This document shows positions 39,350 through 46,299 of a stretch of DNA of 64,000 nt, in pieces. The position numbers and the translations under genes were made by a program. The DNA is taken from positions 2,232,001 through 2,296,000 of the forward strand of contig CP114179.1 of assembly GCA_039555135.1 (NCBI GenBank). The letters are read 5' to 3'. Below the pieces are notes generated by a model. It was given only the letters and a program-made list of their open reading frames with translations, did no database searches and had not been told where the DNA came from. Position 1 is the first letter of the stretch, and every line of letters begins with the position of its first letter. The stretch is from Phycisphaeraceae bacterium D3-23 (GTDB taxonomy: Bacteria; Planctomycetota; Phycisphaerae; Phycisphaerales; Phycisphaeraceae).

Positions 39350-40135
39350 TCACGTTGTTTCCAGTGATCTCGCGCGCACCTTGCCCCACTGCTGCAATGC
39401 CCCCGCGACGCCTTGCTTGGCGCGCCAGCGATAGGTGCCTTGTAGCGCGCGTGTTTCATCAAACACGTCTTGCCCGTCGGCACTGCCGAACACAGGAGTC
39501 TCGCCATCGTGCATCGAGTAGAACGTGGCGTAATTGCCTTCGGCGTCGGGTGTCAATGACGCGAGCCAGTCCGTCATCGCGTCCGCCATCGCGCGGTGCG
39601 AGCCGGCCAGGCGGTCGGCCAGCAGTTCACACAGGCGGACGACGCTGGCGGTCGACATCGTGTGGTAAGCGAGCTGCGGCTCCCAGGCGCGCTGCTTCGC
39701 GGGGTAGTGCGGGGCAGCGGGCGATGATTGGCTGGGCAGCGCCCGTGCCGGGCCATGCAGCGACGCGGCGGCCGCGCAGTCGAGCACGCGCAGCGCCATC
39801 GCGACGAGCCGATCCGCAGTGAGTGATGGCTTCGACCGAGCCAGTGTTGGAAGCAACTCGGCCGATTCAAGCAGATATTTGCCCGTCAGGAACGCACTGC
39901 TGTCGGCCCAGTGGATGTTGGCTCCGCTCGGCCGGGACGAATGGCCCGAGACTTCGGGGATGCCGCCGCCGCTCTTGGCCTGGTCCGACTCGATCCGGTC
40001 CGCGAGGTGCGCCGCCAAGTTCAGCGCGGCCGAGGTGTCGTTGCTCGGCCCCAACTCCCCCGCCGCGACGCGGAGATTGCACAGCAACGCGAAAGCAACG
40101 CTGCCCCGGTCGTGTGGGAGCGCGAAAGTGCTCAT
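39350..40135 (-). CDS. Hypothetical protein, about 261 residues
   Basis: No family is recognised. ATG 40135 (MSTFALPHDRG) is chosen because GGAG lies 6 bp upstream; the frame runs open further upstream to 40321 in unlikely, His/Cys-rich sequence. The protein looks soluble and largely helical, with Ala-rich segments (RLVAMALRVLDCAAAASLHG, VVRLCELLADRLAGS), and has no signal peptide. It is divergent from the GbsR/MarR-type regulator, with 322 bp of regulatory-looking DNA between. Confidence 0.55.
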   Translation of the reverse strand: MSTFALPHDRGSVAFALLCNLRVAAGELGPSNDTSAALNLAAHLADRIESDQAKSGGGIPEVSGHSSRPSGANIHWADSSAFLTGKYLLESAELLPTLARSKPSLTADRLVAMALRVLDCAAAASLHGPARALPSQSSPAAPHYPAKQRAWEPQLAYHTMSTASVVRLCELLADRLAGSHRAMADAMTDWLASLTPDAEGNYATFYSMHDGETPVFGSADGQDVFDETRALQGTYRWRAKQGVAGALQQWGKVRARSLETT

Positions 40136-40364: not shown

Positions 40365-40412
40365 TTGACGATTGCCAGATAAGATGGTAATTTCAGTAAA
40401 GACTGAAATTAC
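40365..40412 (+). promoter_or_regulatory. Promoter and palindromic operator of the GbsR/MarR operon
   Basis: TTGACG (40365-40370) and TAATTT (40388-40393) are separated by 17 bp and look like a sigma-70 promoter. A perfect inverted repeat GTAATTTCAGT-AAAG-ACTGAAATTAC occupies 40387-40412 and covers the -10 box. A third half-site CTGAAATT follows at 40416-40423. The layout suits repression by the regulator encoded 46 bp downstream. Confidence 0.65.
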
Positions 40413-40457
40413 AGTCTGAAATTGGCCGATACCAAGTCAAGATACACGAGGACCGCC

Positions 40458-40979
40458 ATGCAACTCACACCCGTCACACAGAAGTTCGTGCTCCACTGGG
40501 GCGAGATGGGCTCGCGTTGGGGGATCAACCGGACGATCGCCCAGATCCACGCCCTGCTCTACGTCAGCCCCGAGCCGCTCAACGCGGACGAGATCGCCGA
40601 GACTTTGAGCGTAGCGCGGAGCAATGTGAGCATGTCGCTGCGCGAGCTCCAGGGCTGGGGGATCGTGCAGGTCGTCCCGGTGCTCGGCGAACGCAAGGAC
40701 CACTTCACCACACAGCAGGACGTGTGGGAGATGCTGCTGGTCGTACTCGACGAGCGCAAGAAGCGCGAGCTGGACCCGACACTTACCGTTCTGCGCGAAT
40801 GCGTGATGGAAGCCCGGGAATCGGGTGACGACGACAAGCACACCGCGAAACGCCTGGGCGAGCTCTTACAACTCGTCGAGACCTGCGGCGGGTGGTACGG
40901 CCAGGTCCGCGCACTGCCACGCCCGATGCTGGTGCGTTTCCTCAAGATGGGCTCGAAGCTGACGAAGCTGCTGCGTTGA
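40458..40979 (+). CDS. GbsR/MarR-family winged-helix transcriptional regulator
   Basis: ATG 40458 has GAGGA just upstream and gives 173 residues; the earlier TTG at 40422 would start inside the operator region. The N-terminal domain reads FVLHWGEMGSRWGINRTIAQIHALLYVSPEPLNADEIAETLSVARSNVSMSLRELQGWGIV, a winged helix typical of the GbsR group (GbsR of Bacillus controls glycine-betaine synthesis; many relatives control membrane or osmotic genes). A wing (GERKDHFTT) and a C-terminal helical dimerisation region follow. It heads the run of genes to 45574 and probably binds the palindrome at 40387-40412. Confidence 0.85.
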   Translation: MQLTPVTQKFVLHWGEMGSRWGINRTIAQIHALLYVSPEPLNADEIAETLSVARSNVSMSLRELQGWGIVQVVPVLGERKDHFTTQQDVWEMLLVVLDERKKRELDPTLTVLRECVMEARESGDDDKHTAKRLGELLQLVETCGGWYGQVRALPRPMLVRFLKMGSKLTKLLR

Positions 40980-41063
40980 TCGATCGTGCGGCACTGCCGC
41001 GTTTGAAGTCCGATGCTGCGACGTCGCCGCATCTTACCCGGCCAACCGACAAGGAGCATGACC

Positions 41064-41462
41064 ATGCAAGACTACATCGTGATTAGCTACGCGACTTACC
41101 TGTTCCTGAGCATCACCGCGACGATCTGGGTCGCGCGGACCCTGCACCGCAACGGGCGGGTCTTCCTCGTTACCGCGTTCCACGGCGATGAGAAGCTGGC
41201 GGACTCCGTGAACCACCTGCTCGTGGTCGGGTTCTACCTGATCAATATTGGCTGGGTCACGCTGGCGCTTCGCACGAGCGAGACGCCCAAGACAGTGGCG
41301 GATGTGTTCGAGCTGCTGTCTTACAAGCTCGGCATCGTGCTGCTGGTCCTGGGTGCGATGCACTTTTTGAACCTCTACGGATTCAACAAGATGCGTAAGG
41401 ATGCGCTGTACCAGCAGGCCCCGCCGCCGGTTGAGCCGGACGACGCGCTGGTGCTTGAGTAG
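41064..41462 (+). CDS. Small integral membrane protein
   Basis: 132 residues with three predicted helices (YIVISYATYLFLSITATIWVA, LLVVGFYLINIGWVTLAL, LGIVLLVLGAMHFLNLYGF) and a charged C-terminal tail. ATG 41064 is chosen because AAGGAG lies 7 bp before it; the ATG at 41058 is too close to that site. No family is recognised. It is the first structural gene after the regulator (85 bp). Confidence 0.7.
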   Translation: MQDYIVISYATYLFLSITATIWVARTLHRNGRVFLVTAFHGDEKLADSVNHLLVVGFYLINIGWVTLALRTSETPKTVADVFELLSYKLGIVLLVLGAMHFLNLYGFNKMRKDALYQQAPPPVEPDDALVLE

Positions 41463-41551
41463 CCGGTTCTGTGTCGTGGGGCCGGGCGCTCCGGGGGTCC
41501 GGCCCCGCGTTTTGACTGTGTTTCAGCCCGAAACAGGAAGGAGTCCATGTC

Positions 41552-42034
41552 ATGAAACAGCTCACTGTGCTTTACGATCCGACGTGTGGGTTATGTGTGC
41601 GTTGCCGGCAGTGGCTGGCGAAGCAGCCCGCGTTGATCCCACTGCGGTTTGTGCCCCAGGGCTCGCGGCGGCAGGCAACGCTGTTCCCGGGGTTCGAGAC
41701 GAAGACCGATGAGCAGGGTCGGCCTGAGGAGTTGGTTGTCATCGACGATTCGGGCCAGGTGTACCGCAACGACAAGGCGTGGGTGATGTGTTTCTACGCA
41801 TTGCGTGAGTACCGTGCGCTCTCGATGCGGCTGGCGAGGCCGGGTATGGCCGGGCTCGCGCGGCGGGCTTACCACCTGATCGCGGTTAACCGGCGGGCGC
41901 TGTCGTGGCTGATCGGCGGCGGCGAGGACGAGGTGGTCGAGCGTTTGCAGCGGGCGATCGATCCGCCGCGCTGCAACAACGCGTTGGACGCGCTACGTAC
42001 TGCGAAAGAAGCGGCGGCGAAGCGGTATGACTAA
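41552..42034 (+). CDS. DCC-family thiol-disulfide oxidoreductase-like protein (DUF393)
   Basis: 160 residues. The N-terminus LTVLYDPTCGLCVRCRQWL carries the thioredoxin-like CXXC of the DCC family, named after its DXXCXXC motif. It continues with ELVVIDDSGQVYRNDKAWVMCFYAL. No signal peptide is seen, so it is cytoplasmic. A strong GAAGGAG precedes the ATG. Family members are uncharacterised; a redox partner for the desaturase in the same operon is a reasonable guess but unproven. Confidence 0.82.
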   Translation: MKQLTVLYDPTCGLCVRCRQWLAKQPALIPLRFVPQGSRRQATLFPGFETKTDEQGRPEELVVIDDSGQVYRNDKAWVMCFYALREYRALSMRLARPGMAGLARRAYHLIAVNRRALSWLIGGGEDEVVERLQRAIDPPRCNNALDALRTAKEAAAKRYD

Positions 42035-42049
42035 TCACTGGAGCGCACG

Positions 42050-43180
42050 ATGCCCGCTGGATGCCACAACCCGCTGTTCCCCCCCGCGCCCGATGGGGCC
42101 GAGCGTTTGCCGCGATGCCTGGGCTGCGGGTATCGGCTCGATGGGCTGAGCCATCCCGCCTGCCCCGAGTGCGGCCGGCGATATGACGCTGCCCGCCCGG
42201 AGACCTATTCCTTGCGTCGGCCGTTCGTGTGGCACCGCTACTGGTGGCCGGGCATGTTGTTTACGCTGGTCTCGGGCCTGGTGTGGGCGGTGTTTTTCTA
42301 CGGCATCGGGGAGCTGGGCTGGGGGCTGTTCATCGGGCTGCCGTTTATGCTCGGGACGTTGATGGGCTACGGCGGCCGATTCAACGGCTGGATGGGCCTT
42401 CTGCTGGGCCCGGTGTGTCTGATGCTCTGTGTCGCGATGCTTGTGGCGCTATTGATGGTGGGCGGGCTCGCGGGGATGTTCTGTGGCGCGTTCCTGCTGC
42501 TGTTCCTGATCCCGATCGGGATCGGCGGGCTGTTCTTTGGGATTTTTGCAGCGCGGGCGCTCGCGGCGATTCTGAAGCAGACGGCCTTCAGCCAGCGCGA
42601 GTACCTCCCGTTGCTGCTGGTGATCTTCCTGCTGCCGGGTTTGGCGCACCTCGCGCAGGTGCTGTTTGCACCTCCTGTACAGGTCGAGACGATCCAGACG
42701 ACGCAGAGGGTGGCGGCGCGTCCGATGTCGGCATGGGATGCGTGGATGTTTTACGAAGAGGTCGATCACCAGCCGCCGTGGCTGCTGCGGATGGGGCTGC
42801 CGACACCGAGCCATGTCGAGGGGCGCATCGTCACGGTGGGCGACCGGGAAGTGTGTGTCTACACCGGCGACGCCCGGCTGGTGAAGCGGGGGACGTCTGT
42901 CGAGCCCGGCCGGCTGCTCGCGTTTGATGTAGTGGGACAGCACTCCTTCGAGGACAACTCGATCCGACTGATCGACGGCAGTTTCCGATTTACGCCGGCC
43001 GGACCCGAAGCGACGGACGTGACACTTTCGACGCGGTATGAGCCGTTGTTGAGGCCGCGCGCCCTTTGGCGTCCGATCGAACACGCCGTGACGCGCCAGC
43101 TTCACGGGCACGTACTCGAAGGGATGCGTCTTGAGATCGAACGACGACGGTACGCCGACAACACCGGGGGGCCACGATGA
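42050..43180 (+). CDS. Zinc-ribbon, multi-helix membrane protein with SRPBCC-like C-terminal region
   Basis: 376 residues in three parts. Residues 20-50 form a zinc ribbon, CLGCGYRLDGLSHPACPECG, of a type recurring in this window (60411 gene). Then come at least four transmembrane helices (about residues 65-205). The C-terminal 150 residues form a beta-rich domain (HVEGRIVTVGDREVCVYTGDARLVKRG ... DVTLSTRYEPLLRPRALWRPIEHAVTRQLHGHVLEGMR) with the look of a polyketide-cyclase/SRPBCC lipid-binding fold. It overlaps the next SRPBCC gene by 4 bp. The function is unknown; a membrane-bound lipid handler is inferred. Confidence 0.65.
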   Translation: MPAGCHNPLFPPAPDGAERLPRCLGCGYRLDGLSHPACPECGRRYDAARPETYSLRRPFVWHRYWWPGMLFTLVSGLVWAVFFYGIGELGWGLFIGLPFMLGTLMGYGGRFNGWMGLLLGPVCLMLCVAMLVALLMVGGLAGMFCGAFLLLFLIPIGIGGLFFGIFAARALAAILKQTAFSQREYLPLLLVIFLLPGLAHLAQVLFAPPVQVETIQTTQRVAARPMSAWDAWMFYEEVDHQPPWLLRMGLPTPSHVEGRIVTVGDREVCVYTGDARLVKRGTSVEPGRLLAFDVVGQHSFEDNSIRLIDGSFRFTPAGPEATDVTLSTRYEPLLRPRALWRPIEHAVTRQLHGHVLEGMRLEIERRRYADNTGGPR

Positions 43181-43737
43181 CACGGGTGTGCCTGACGAGC
43201 AGGGGGTGCGTGAAGGCCGAGGTGGCGGTGAAGCTTGCTGCGCCTGCGGAGGCGGTGTGGCGAGAGATGTCGCGGTTCCAGCAGTTCATCGCGGCCGACC
43301 CGTACCACACGCGCATCACCGACACGGCGGGCCGACGGTTCGACGCACTCCCGCCACGCGGGACGCGGCTGCGGATCGGGCACGGCGTGGGGTGGACCTG
43401 GTTCGAGCGCGTCGGCACGATGTTGTATGTCCGAGACGGCAAGGGCTTCGCGTTCTCCGACCTGTCGGGCCGGGGCCGGGCCGTCGGCTTCCCGCATGTC
43501 TATCACTACACGCTCGAACCCCGTGACGGGCGAGGCTGTGTGCTCCGGCTGCGGGTACGCGGCCGATGGTCGGCGCGGTGGCTGCCGCGCGGCCTGGTGA
43601 TGGTCTGGCTGTACTGGGTGATGTTTCAGGCCGGCTGGCTGATGCGGGCCCGGCTGGTGTTCGCGCTGCATCGCGAACGCCGCACGCAACGCTCGGCGGG
43701 GAGACGCCCCGCCCACGCACAAGGAGAATCGCGATGA
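43177..43737 (+). CDS. SRPBCC-family (START/Bet v 1-like) protein
   Basis: 186 residues. The opening VKAEVAVKLAAPAEAVWREMSRFQQFIAADPYHTRI is typical of SRPBCC proteins, which form a hydrophobic pocket. A hydrophobic segment near residues 130-150 (LVMVWLYWVMFQAGWLM) could associate with the membrane, and the tail is basic. Both ends overlap neighbours by 4 bp (ATGA), so translation is coupled to the preceding zinc-ribbon protein and the desaturase. The ligand is unknown. Confidence 0.65.
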   Translation: MTRVCLTSRGCVKAEVAVKLAAPAEAVWREMSRFQQFIAADPYHTRITDTAGRRFDALPPRGTRLRIGHGVGWTWFERVGTMLYVRDGKGFAFSDLSGRGRAVGFPHVYHYTLEPRDGRGCVLRLRVRGRWSARWLPRGLVMVWLYWVMFQAGWLMRARLVFALHRERRTQRSAGRRPAHAQGESR

Positions 43738-44552
43738 CTGCACGCGACCCCGCACTACGACGGATCGAATGGCACGACCTGCTGCCGATGACATGGGGGC
43801 AAGTGCTCAATGAGTTGACGCTGTCGCTGCCCTGGCTGTTGGCTTCGCTCGGGTGTTACTACGCGGGTGGGTGGTGGGTCTTGTTCGGGATGCTGTGTTC
43901 GTTCTTCTTTTTCCTCACGGGGTTGCGCCAGTCGCACGGTTGTCAGCACTACCAGTTGCCGATCGCGCGGCGGTGGCAGGACGTGATGCTCGCGGCGCTG
44001 AGTGTACTGATGCTGTCGTCGATGCATGCGGTGCAGGCGACGCACCTGAACCACCACCGGCACACGCTGGACGAGCACGACTTCGAGGGCTCGGTCGCGC
44101 GGCAGCCGATGTGGCGGGCGCTGTTGACCGGCCCGCTGTTCCCGATCCGTTTGCATGGGCACGCATGGCGGCTCGCGCGGCCGAGTAAACGCAGGTGGAT
44201 CGCCTTGGAAATGCTCGCGGTGTTCGGCTTGGTTGCGTTGTTGCCTGTCCTGCCCGCCGCGCTGCGTTGGCACGTGCTGGCGATGTTGGTCGGCGAGTGT
44301 TTTGTCGGGTTTTTCGCGGTGTGGACCGTGCATCACGATTGCGATGCGCACACGCCCTACCGGACGCAGCGCGGGCGTTGGATCAATCGGCTGTTTTACA
44401 ACATGTTCCTGCACACCGAGCACCACCTGTTCCCCGCCGTGCCGACGTGCAAGCTGCACCTGCTTGCGCAGCGGATCGATGTGGCCGAGCGGCGCTACCG
44501 CACGTTGCAGGTGCTGCCAAGCATGGCTCATACACGGAAGGAAGCGGGATGA
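43734..44552 (+). CDS. Membrane fatty-acid desaturase family protein
   Basis: ATG 43734 has AAGGAG 7 bp upstream and gives 272 residues. Histidine clusters of the integral-membrane di-iron desaturase/hydroxylase superfamily are present: HGCQH, HLNHHRH, HHDCDAH and the C-terminal HTEHHLFP. Four or so transmembrane helices separate them. The family includes acyl-lipid desaturases and carotenoid ketolases. The final box NMFLHTEHHLFPAVP favours an acyl or carotenoid substrate, which cannot be decided here. It is the likely catalytic core of the operon. Confidence 0.85.
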   Translation: MTARDPALRRIEWHDLLPMTWGQVLNELTLSLPWLLASLGCYYAGGWWVLFGMLCSFFFFLTGLRQSHGCQHYQLPIARRWQDVMLAALSVLMLSSMHAVQATHLNHHRHTLDEHDFEGSVARQPMWRALLTGPLFPIRLHGHAWRLARPSKRRWIALEMLAVFGLVALLPVLPAALRWHVLAMLVGECFVGFFAVWTVHHDCDAHTPYRTQRGRWINRLFYNMFLHTEHHLFPAVPTCKLHLLAQRIDVAERRYRTLQVLPSMAHTRKEAG

Positions 44553-45364
44553 ACTTCGCGAAGCCGACAGACATGGTGTTGCGTGGCCGGTTGGCCGACA
44601 CGGTGCTACTGACGTATCGCACCCCGGCGGATTCGGTGCGTGAGATGCTGCCCGACGGGCTGGAACTGGTGCAGCGTGGCCCCTGGGCATTTTGGAGCGT
44701 GGTGTGCTGCCGGGTCGAACAGATGCGGCCAATCGGTGTGCCTGCAGCGCTGGGAGTCGGCCTTCATCATGTCGCTTACCGGCTGCGGGTGCAGGCGATG
44801 ACTGCGTCGGCGGAGGTAATCGACGGGCTTTACTTCACGCACAGCGATGCGGATGCGCCGCTACCGCCGCTGTTCGGCGCGGTGGGTAACCGCCTGACGG
44901 ACCTGCGGCTGCACCGCGCCGAGATCGCAATGAACTGCGGCGATGATGCCATGTGCGTCACGGTCGATCCGGCGGCGAGTGAGGCGGGTTACGGCTTACG
45001 CCTCGATCTTGCACACGCGCCGGCCGCGCGCCTGGAAGGCTCGTGTTTCCCGACGGTCGAGGATGCGCGTTCGTTTGGCCGATACCCACGTGCCGCGCTG
45101 TCTGTACATCCGAGCAAGGGCGACCCAGAGCGCAGGACGCTGCATGTCATGCGGGTCGAGCGTGTGGATTCATCGTGGTGCGAGACGCCGGTCGCGGTGC
45201 GCGATGCCCGGCTGGGCTATCTCGATGCGATCGGGCAGGGCGGCCAGGCCGAGTTGGAATGGGCGGTCCGGCTGCGGCCGATGGAGTACCGCTGGGTGCT
45301 GGGCGAGCGGCACGCGCTGTTGGATCGCTGCGACACGGCACGGCGGTGGACGGGAGTGGCGTAG
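44549..45364 (+). CDS. DUF2071 (YqjF-like) family protein
   Basis: 271 residues starting at an ATGA overlap with the desaturase, after GGAAGGAAG. The sequence (LLTYRTPADSVREMLPDGLELVQRGPWAFWSVVCCRVEQMRPIG ... HHVAYRLRV) matches DUF2071/YqjF, whose fold resembles acetoacetate decarboxylase. The function of the family is unknown. It often accompanies DCC and SRPBCC genes, consistent with this operon. Confidence 0.78.
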   Translation: MNFAKPTDMVLRGRLADTVLLTYRTPADSVREMLPDGLELVQRGPWAFWSVVCCRVEQMRPIGVPAALGVGLHHVAYRLRVQAMTASAEVIDGLYFTHSDADAPLPPLFGAVGNRLTDLRLHRAEIAMNCGDDAMCVTVDPAASEAGYGLRLDLAHAPAARLEGSCFPTVEDARSFGRYPRAALSVHPSKGDPERRTLHVMRVERVDSSWCETPVAVRDARLGYLDAIGQGGQAELEWAVRLRPMEYRWVLGERHALLDRCDTARRWTGVA

Positions 45365-45391
45365 CTGCGGAACAGAAAGGGGCGACAGGTG

Positions 45392-45574
45392 ATGGCGGTC
45401 TTCTATGGCGCGGGTTTCATCTTGGCGGTGGTCGTCAGCGGCGGGGTCGGCCTCGCGGCGAGCTACGCGACGGTCTCGCGGTCGGGCGGCTTGTGGTCGC
45501 TGGCGTGTGTGCCGATTTCGCTGGTTGTGTTTTTGTGGCTGGTGCTTTGTGTGCCGTGGTGGCGGTATCTTTAG
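45392..45574 (+). CDS. Very small membrane protein
   Basis: 60 residues with two hydrophobic helices (FYGAGFILAVVVSGGVGLAASYA and LACVPISLVVFLWLVLCVPWW). It lies 27 bp after DUF2071 in the same direction and closes the run. ATG 45392 is preferred to GTG 45389. The gene is short and without family support; its position and two clean helices make it plausible. Confidence 0.5.
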   Translation: MAVFYGAGFILAVVVSGGVGLAASYATVSRSGGLWSLACVPISLVVFLWLVLCVPWWRYL

Positions 45575-45651: not shown

Positions 45652-46299
45652 CTACACGTTCGCGCGGGGCTGGCTTCGTACGGCGTCGATCTGGTCGATG
45701 AGCCAGCCAGCGAGATGTTGCTTGAGCATTTTGCCCGGGGCGTCGCGTTGGCCGTTGGCGAAGAAGAGGATGGGCTCGATATCGACGGCGTCCATCGTCG
45801 CGAGGGGGTTGGCGAGGATGGCGTCGACTTTTTTGCGTTGCATCTTCTCGACGGCGCGGGTTTCGAGCACGGCGGGCTCTTCGAGGGCGAAGGCGATAAT
45901 GGTCTGGTCGTCGCGTTTGGTTTTCGCACAGCCCGCGACGAGGTCGGGGGTGGGTTCGAGCTCGATCTTGAGCCCGTCGCTGCGCGGGGTCTTGCCGTCG
46001 ATGACATGTGTCGGCCGATAGTCGGCGACGGCGGCTGCCTTGATGAGCGTATCGGCGTTGGGGAAGTGCTCGGCCAGGAGCGACTCAAGCTCGGCGGTCG
46101 TGTTGAACCGGACGACACGCGCGACGTCTTCGACGCTGGGCGGCATCAGGACCGGCCCCAGCAGCAGGGTTACATCGTGGCCCGCCTCGGCCGCGGCGCG
46201 CGCGAGTGCGAACCCCATCTGCCCGCTGGAGCGGTTGGAGATGAAACGGACATCGTCGATGGGTTCGCGGGTCGGCCCCGCGGTGATCAGTACGCGCAT
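45652..46299 (-). CDS. coaB: Stand-alone phosphopantothenate-cysteine ligase domain (CoaB-like)
   Basis: ATG 46299 gives 215 residues: [49 protein letters not shown], then [11 protein letters not shown] and VDAILANPL. These are the DFP/CoaB signatures of the coenzyme A pathway enzyme that couples cysteine to 4'-phosphopantothenate. In most bacteria this domain is fused behind the flavin-dependent decarboxylase CoaC. Here no CoaC domain is attached or adjacent, so the decarboxylase must be encoded elsewhere. It is 40 bp downstream of the M16 gene. Confidence 0.85.

Follow-up and report, generated by a model that had tools for sequence, protein, structure and literature searches.

The closest described counterparts of the locus examined here are operons controlled by repressors of the GbsR family. 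The locus is a run of eight genes, headed by a GbsR-family regulator gene, in Phycisphaeraceae bacterium D3-23 (Planctomycetota), whose genome is a single 4.62-Mb contig (CP114179.1); the stretch analysed, hereafter the window, comprises 64,000 nucleotides of it (positions 2,232,001 to 2,296,000), and coordinates in the locus are counted from the first base of the window. In Alishewanella the GbsR-type repressor CydE has been footprinted on two sites, one of which, TATTTCAGAAATTTCTGAAAGTTCA, contains TTTCA-N8-TGAAA (PMC6096048), the same core as that of a palindrome ahead of the regulator gene in the window. CydE, like the predicted window circuit, is a GbsR-type repressor of its own operon that acts at a site with this core; it differs in targeting cytochrome bd genes, of which there are none among the eight, in responding to sulfate as inducer, and in having a second footprinted site of another sequence (PMC6096048). 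The GbsR/gbsAB-opuB and OpcR systems of Bacillus subtilis also involve GbsR-family repressors, with several target operons, and the GbsR operator resembles the window palindrome in being an inverted repeat rich in A/T whose halves are 4 bp apart. That regulator, however, senses choline, controls osmoprotection genes and acts as a roadblock at an operator downstream of the start site (PMC7396694).

A 2018 survey found GbsR proteins in osmotic, transporter and cydAB contexts; it reports no consistent neighbourhood for the Bacteroidetes and archaeal groups, could deduce no function for 73 of 179 proteins (mainly those of Euryarchaeota and Bacteroidetes), and describes the inducer-binding aromatic cage as absent outside the osmostress group (PMC6207618). 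The unassigned Bacteroidetes group probably comprises regulators like those of the Chitinophagaceae loci described below, for which, in contrast to the survey, we find a recurring neighbourhood. Searches of open PubMed Central returned nothing combining DUF2071 with DCC and desaturase, one paper that mentions DUF2071, nothing on COG1510, three papers but nothing relevant by title and abstract opening for pairs drawn from TIGR01777, DCC, DoxX, SRPBCC, COG1090 and COG3011, and no title on this gene set among the matches listed. As far as these searches go, the type of circuit is known and its target set and two-phylum spread have not been described. An earlier note on this DNA, made from the letters alone, knew of no system with exactly this set, and in these searches that still holds; the set is not a fixed system, however, as other loci carry different cargo. 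With this locus, GbsR regulators of this type gain a defined operator, a regulon with two sites in a single genome and a set of recurring targets, through which their role becomes directly testable, and the poorly understood DCC1-like, DUF2071, TIGR01777 and small membrane protein (3TM) families are tied to one control circuit.

The candidate operator at the regulator promoter

We regard it as highly probable, from comparison of sequences, that the window regulator and a conserved palindrome constitute a regulon and its operator. A perfect palindrome of 26 bp, with two 11-bp arms around a 4-bp loop and no strand assigned, lies at 40387-40412, just ahead of the regulator gene, and reads GTAATTTCAGT-aaag-ACTGAAATTAC, with the core TTTCAGT-N4-ACTGAAA at 40391-40408; pattern searches and conservation mark it as the candidate GbsR operator. 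It covers TAATTT (40388-40393), which is likely to be the -10 box, and 17 bp before TAATTT a reading of the sequence places a candidate -35 box, TTGACG, at 40365-40370 on the plus strand. An automated promoter scan called no promoter at the TTGACG/TAATTT site; by eye, TTGAC precedes the palindrome in 10 of 10 distinct same-family loci with upstream sequence, the window included. The palindrome was absent from the earlier note; the start coordinate given there, 40365, is the first base of TTGACG.

The site is rare. When the window was scanned with TTTCWGTNNNNACWGAAA, allowing up to two mismatches, the sole match was the 40387-40412 site (0.12 expected), and the 4.62-Mb genome holds two matches with at most one mismatch, where base composition predicts 0.004 exact matches. 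The palindrome is very probably what the window GbsR binds, a prediction made because the CydE footprint has the same core and because the flanks are alike: the right flank of the CydE site resembles many Chitinophagaceae sites (GAAAGTTC or GAAAATTC).

Conservation of the candidate operator

Because the gene caller put genes on the wrong strand in GC-rich relatives (e.g. L079), all tallies were made with six-frame profile matches, except those for the Chitinophagaceae, which used called genes. Within the window family, 28 exact sites are spread over 22 of 51 genomes, every one of which (22/22) also has the GbsR gene, while none of the 24 genomes lacking GbsR has an exact site (Fisher p 8.7e-10, which, the genomes being related, is no independent-sample probability). 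A control pattern, the operator reversed, occurred in five genomes and showed no association with GbsR. Of the 28 sites, 24 have a GbsR gene no more than 150 bp away, five of the 24 being 3' of it and before the next gene, and the remaining four comprise three at the start of an epimerase gene and one (G017:C60) by an ArsR-like gene.

The spacing of the half-sites is conserved as well. TTTCW-N8-WGAAA was found within 200 bp upstream of 37 of 47 distinct GbsR genes, whereas spacers of 4-7, 9, 10 and 12 were found for none and a spacer of 11 for two. These 47 loci come from the window family, a phylum sample and the desaturase search (34 + 13, the set of 34 leaving out the window itself and L159, where the GbsR gene is partial, and L015 and L094, which are one locus, being counted once). 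The ten misses comprise two contig ends, seven sites one base off and one locus (L204) with nothing.

The same arrangement recurs in the Bacteroidota. The regulator was found in 33 of 60 Chitinophagaceae genomes, and among the 31 loci examined TTTCA-N8-TGAAA is present in 26, or in 28 once two mis-called starts are corrected, with zero or one locus for each other spacer length. The exceptions are L299 (one mismatch), L300 (a variant) and L311, which has the most divergent regulator and no site.

A second site at an epimerase gene

The second site in the window genome, at 1523662, overlaps the ATG of a gene for a 310-residue TIGR01777 (YfcH-type) epimerase-like protein, 0.75 Mb from the operon; the protein scores 240.3 bits against TIGR01777, above the curated cut-off of 207.35. 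Close orthologs (65-100% identical) occur in four same-genus genomes, that of the window included, and the site spans the start codon in all four, in one with a single mismatch. A fifth same-genus genome (G018, 70% complete) has a distant epimerase homolog alone. None of the 26 distant TIGR01777 homologs examined, out of 40 found in the family, has a start-site operator (at least five mismatches each); this comparison did not extend to the other TIGR01777-like gene of the window genome, at 114421.

In all four genomes with an ortholog the ATG lies inside the palindrome (L102 7663-7680 = G000:C1:1523662), and with its start codon inside the operator the epimerase mRNA may be leaderless or nearly so.

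Recurring gene neighbourhoods

To relate the operator to its cargo, we compared neighbourhoods of the desaturase, 3TM and GbsR genes. Sixty-one desaturase loci were found, and the 36 closer ones (L015-L050; 12 from Bacteroidota, L015 from the window genus and 23 others) were searched for other members of the set. In the 12 Bacteroidota loci GbsR lies upstream in 11, the epimerase is present in eight and 3TM in five. Six of the eight genes are found in the closest relative, L015 (= L094), and the full eight-gene order occurs in the window only among the loci searched. None of the 23 loci outside the Bacteroidota other than L015 shows GbsR; among these 23, DCC adjoins the desaturase in L037 and L049, and L029 and L032 have the epimerase.

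Searches from the other genes give a similar picture. Around the 37 3TM loci of the phylum, with matches of 40 bits or less omitted, DCC lies within 1.5 kb on the same strand in 21 and GbsR within 3.5 kb in 14, and in L138, from another family of the same order, the operator, GbsR, desaturase, 3TM, DCC and DUF2071 stand in a row. Of the 31 Chitinophagaceae GbsR loci, 15 have the epimerase within six genes of the regulator, four a DCC-motif protein and four 3TM, at least one core gene being present in 19; L310 brings together 3TM, a DCC protein, the epimerase and a protein of 106 residues whose match to a polyketide cyclase stays below threshold. DoxX_3 and MBOAT-like genes occur in the alternative operon of one relative each.

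The association exceeds chance, since GbsR, 3TM and desaturase recur together in another phylum and the operator exceeds expectation. Because gene content differs between loci while GbsR and operator persist, the comparison suggests that the cargo is modular and that regulator and operator are its stable part; the eight window genes would then be one modular cargo of a wider regulon. The earlier note's proposal of a GbsR-controlled, linked gene set is supported, and with more strength than the letters alone allowed, by the shared operator, the second target gene and the gene associations across phyla. It had also held that scattering of these genes in related genomes would speak against a unit, and on this count the answer is divided: GbsR stays with its operator and the cargo changes.

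Two further loci may be mentioned here. In L200 (4583-9660), GbsR is accompanied by an NAD(P)-binding protein, DUF2071, an MBOAT-like acyltransferase, two small proteins and then the epimerase, and the operator there is one base off the relaxed pattern. One Chitinophagaceae genome has, after GbsR and 3TM, a gene for a peroxiredoxin of the OsmC family (L305 4695-5105).

The eight genes and their products

Eight plus-strand open reading frames (ORFs) occupy 40458-45574, in the order that the earlier note had given. The flanking genes, at 39350-40135 on the left (no Pfam match) and 45652-46299 on the right (DFP domain), are both on the minus strand, so that the unit is clearly delimited. The 4-bp ATGA overlaps, three in number (43177, 43734 and 44549), are as the note described them; its picture of tight packing applies to these junctions and not to the first two, where gaps of 84 bp (genes 1/2) and 89 bp (genes 2/3, gene 2 being counted from the ATG at 41064) were found. 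Its domain labels fared similarly: MarR_2, DCC1-like, FA_desaturase and DUF2071 exceed their Pfam cut-offs, while the SRPBCC label is weak for both genes that were given it, 4 and 5.

Gene 1 (40458-40979, plus strand; a TTG start at 40422 is possible) encodes the GbsR-family winged-helix regulator of 173 residues (MarR_2 30.4 bits, cut-off 27). Its profile, A2, matches MJ223 (1ku9) at E 3.7e-24 over positions 3-150 of 172, and this homology and the inverted repeat predicted to serve its own promoter are both traits of the GbsR family. The genome has one match to profile A2 at E <= 0.01, and likewise one to the desaturase. Cytochrome bd families are absent from the eight proteins and five neighbours scanned, so the adjacency to cydAB is lacking, and the choline-regulator model CudC gives 42.2 bits against a cut-off of 218. 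The window regulator probably stands outside both the osmoprotection and the cydAB groups of GbsR. A choline- or betaine-sensing (osmotic) regulator was considered and rejected on the CudC score, the gene content and the reported absence of the aromatic cage.

Gene 2 (41064-41462, plus strand) encodes 3TM, a small membrane protein of 132 residues with no Pfam family, whose relatives occur in 37 of 392 genomes of the phylum, its own included. The DCC1-like thiol-disulfide oxidoreductase of gene 3 (41552-42034, plus strand; 160 residues; PF04134 50.3 bits, cut-off 27.8) has a CxxC motif at Cys 12 and 15; neither cysteine varies across an alignment of 10 sequences, four of them chosen for having the motif. 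The 376-residue product of gene 4 (42050-43180, plus strand) reaches no Pfam cut-off and combines a zinc ribbon, membrane helices and a possible SRPBCC-like C-terminal part; its ortholog in L015 is 53% identical and keeps zinc-ribbon residues C23, C26, C38 and C41, and a low-confidence model (predicted local distance difference test score, pLDDT, 48.5) has short N-terminal strands and six helices, and its beta-rich C-terminal end is capped by a long helix. Gene 5 (43177-43737, plus strand) encodes a possible SRPBCC-like protein of 186 residues, 49% identical to its ortholog in L015. Its Polyketide_cyc2 score, 17.6 bits, stays below the cut-off of 27.4; for gene 4 no SRPBCC family was matched.

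Gene 6 (43734-44552, plus strand) encodes a small membrane enzyme of 272 residues, presumably di-iron, which belongs to the FA_desaturase superfamily by its Pfam score (PF00487 69.5 bits, cut-off 29.7) and its histidine motifs. Eleven histidines are invariant in a 27-sequence alignment (H68, H72, H104, H107, H108, H141, H200, H201, H227, H230 and H231), in motifs that we take to be like those of AlkB and stearoyl-CoA desaturase. In structural realignment the best match of its model (pLDDT 91.9) is a chain from the FtsHi motor complex of chloroplasts (8xks_K Z 18.0, 8xqw_M Z 17.0), followed in our comparison by AlkB 8f6t (Z 14.2, 225 residues, 3.8 Å) and stearoyl-CoA desaturase 4zyo (Z 7.8). 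The likeness to AlkB and stearoyl-CoA desaturase is thus one of fold; the protein differs from both in its smaller size and in sharing less than 15% identity with them in the structural alignments. Because the fold is nearer AlkB, we do not claim desaturase activity; judged from the model, desaturation and hydroxylation are both possible, and the fold does not settle the chemistry.

Gene 7 (44549-45364, plus strand) encodes a DUF2071 (COG2071) protein of 271 residues (PF09844 42.9 bits, cut-off 27) with weak ADC homology (E 0.01). The weakest member is gene 8 (45389-45574, plus strand), which would encode a membrane protein of 61 residues that belongs to no family and has no relative in the other loci searched.

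Possible joint function

The best explanation of the whole, which we hold to be reasonably probable, is that a self-repressing GbsR, with the window operon as its main target, controls an inducible, oxygen-using set for the modification of membrane lipids. We infer that a GbsR dimer would bind the TTTCwGT-N4-ACwGAAA palindrome over the -10 box of its own promoter and, in the window genus, also the promoter and start codon of the TIGR01777 epimerase gene, so that operon and epimerase gene would both be kept off while it is bound. A small molecule, which is unlikely to be choline, would release it, and 3TM, the thiol-redox DCC protein, the putative hydrophobic-pocket proteins, DUF2071, the NAD(P)-dependent epimerase-like enzyme and the oxygen-using membrane enzyme would then be made, possibly from a single transcript, and would most likely act jointly to alter a membrane lipid, whether of the fatty acyl or the isoprenoid kind. 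Lipid modification is the most economical reading of the joint function because it accommodates the desaturase-like enzyme, the DCC protein, the possible pocket proteins, the epimerase and the DoxX_3 and MBOAT-like genes of relatives; taken by itself, we give it about an even chance. Somewhat more tentatively, the loci could represent a further functional class of GbsR regulon that is common to the Planctomycetota and the Bacteroidota and in which an undescribed oxygen-dependent pathway of a small AlkB/desaturase-fold enzyme, epimerase, DCC and 3TM would remodel a membrane lipid.

Several observations weigh against this explanation. Five GbsR-positive family genomes have no exact site; among four such genomes checked, three depart from the relaxed pattern by one base (G036, G042 and, in each of its two copies, G033), and in the fourth, G043, there is no operator upstream of the distant regulator. 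An exact match at G017:C60:16499 (L190 3000-3017) sits at the 3' end of the ArsR-like gene with no recognised target adjoining. In the Chitinophagaceae the strict motif occurs somewhere in the genome in 25 of 33 GbsR-positive but also in 9 of 27 GbsR-negative genomes, so that there the motif alone is unspecific, the pattern being too loose for A/T-rich genomes. Of the 51 genomes of the window family, 24 are without this GbsR, 11 have 3TM and 9 have a DUF2071 gene of the window type. The neighbourhoods, too, have their gaps: no other core gene lies within six genes downstream in 12 of the 31 Chitinophagaceae loci, L016 (Kapaibacterium, Bacteroidota according to NCBI) has none of GbsR, epimerase and 3TM, three other Planctomycetota desaturase loci (L022, L035 and L044) show no GbsR, and proteobacterial relatives of the desaturase have different partners. 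A Foldseek search with the gene 6 model gave no match at E <= 0.001. Finally, because genes 2 and 3 are separated by a weak stem resembling a terminator, one transcript is not certain.

Other readings have to be set beside lipid modification. The set could tune membrane thiol or quinone chemistry, comparable with CydE and alternative oxidase; the CxxC of the DCC protein, the operator core common to CydE and the DoxX_3 and OsmC genes in relatives' operons all point that way, but the latter amount to one locus each and no cytochrome, quinone-synthesis or oxidase match was found among the eight proteins, and we consider this unlikely. A little less likely still is a defence against hydrophobic compounds, in which an aromatic or hydrocarbon would free the repressor and so induce an AlkB-like hydroxylase with helper proteins. 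Here the nearer fit of gene 6 to AlkB than to stearoyl-CoA desaturase, and the possible pocket proteins and thiol-redox partner close by, have to be set against its Pfam family, FA_desaturase, against a fold common to several chemistries, and against the absence, in the eight proteins, of matches to rubredoxin, ferredoxin reductase or efflux families.

It is improbable that the genes have no joint function and were merely gathered, unrelated, behind one promoter: cargo does vary widely and the 61-residue ORF is in no other locus searched, but in two phyla GbsR is repeatedly accompanied by the same gene families, and the operator is shared with an epimerase gene far away in the genome. An osmoprotective, choline- or betaine-sensing operon, at which the earlier note had hinted, is the least credible of all. 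The regulator resembles GbsR as a family, but its CudC score falls far below the cut-off, families of betaine synthesis and uptake are unmatched among the eight proteins, and the aromatic cage is described as absent outside the osmostress group in the survey (PMC6207618).

Other gene contexts

Among the 23 desaturase loci outside the Bacteroidota and the window genus, 18 have a protein read as a membrane protein beside the desaturase and 14 a saccharopine-dehydrogenase-like protein. In nine of the desaturase loci, from Proteobacteria and related metagenome-assembled genomes (L018, L020, L021, L024, L027, L029, L030, L034 and L040), the genes after the desaturase encode a conserved protein that matches no Pfam family and the saccharopine-dehydrogenase-like protein, a combination that, by gene order, forms a second stable context of this enzyme. 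Just upstream of the GbsR operon in L033, L036, L041, L047, L048 and L050 are genes that group with a type III polyketide synthase, a methyltransferase and an FAD oxidoreductase, labels that come from one tested representative each, the synthase lying beyond view in L041. These upstream genes presumably resemble phenolic-lipid clusters.

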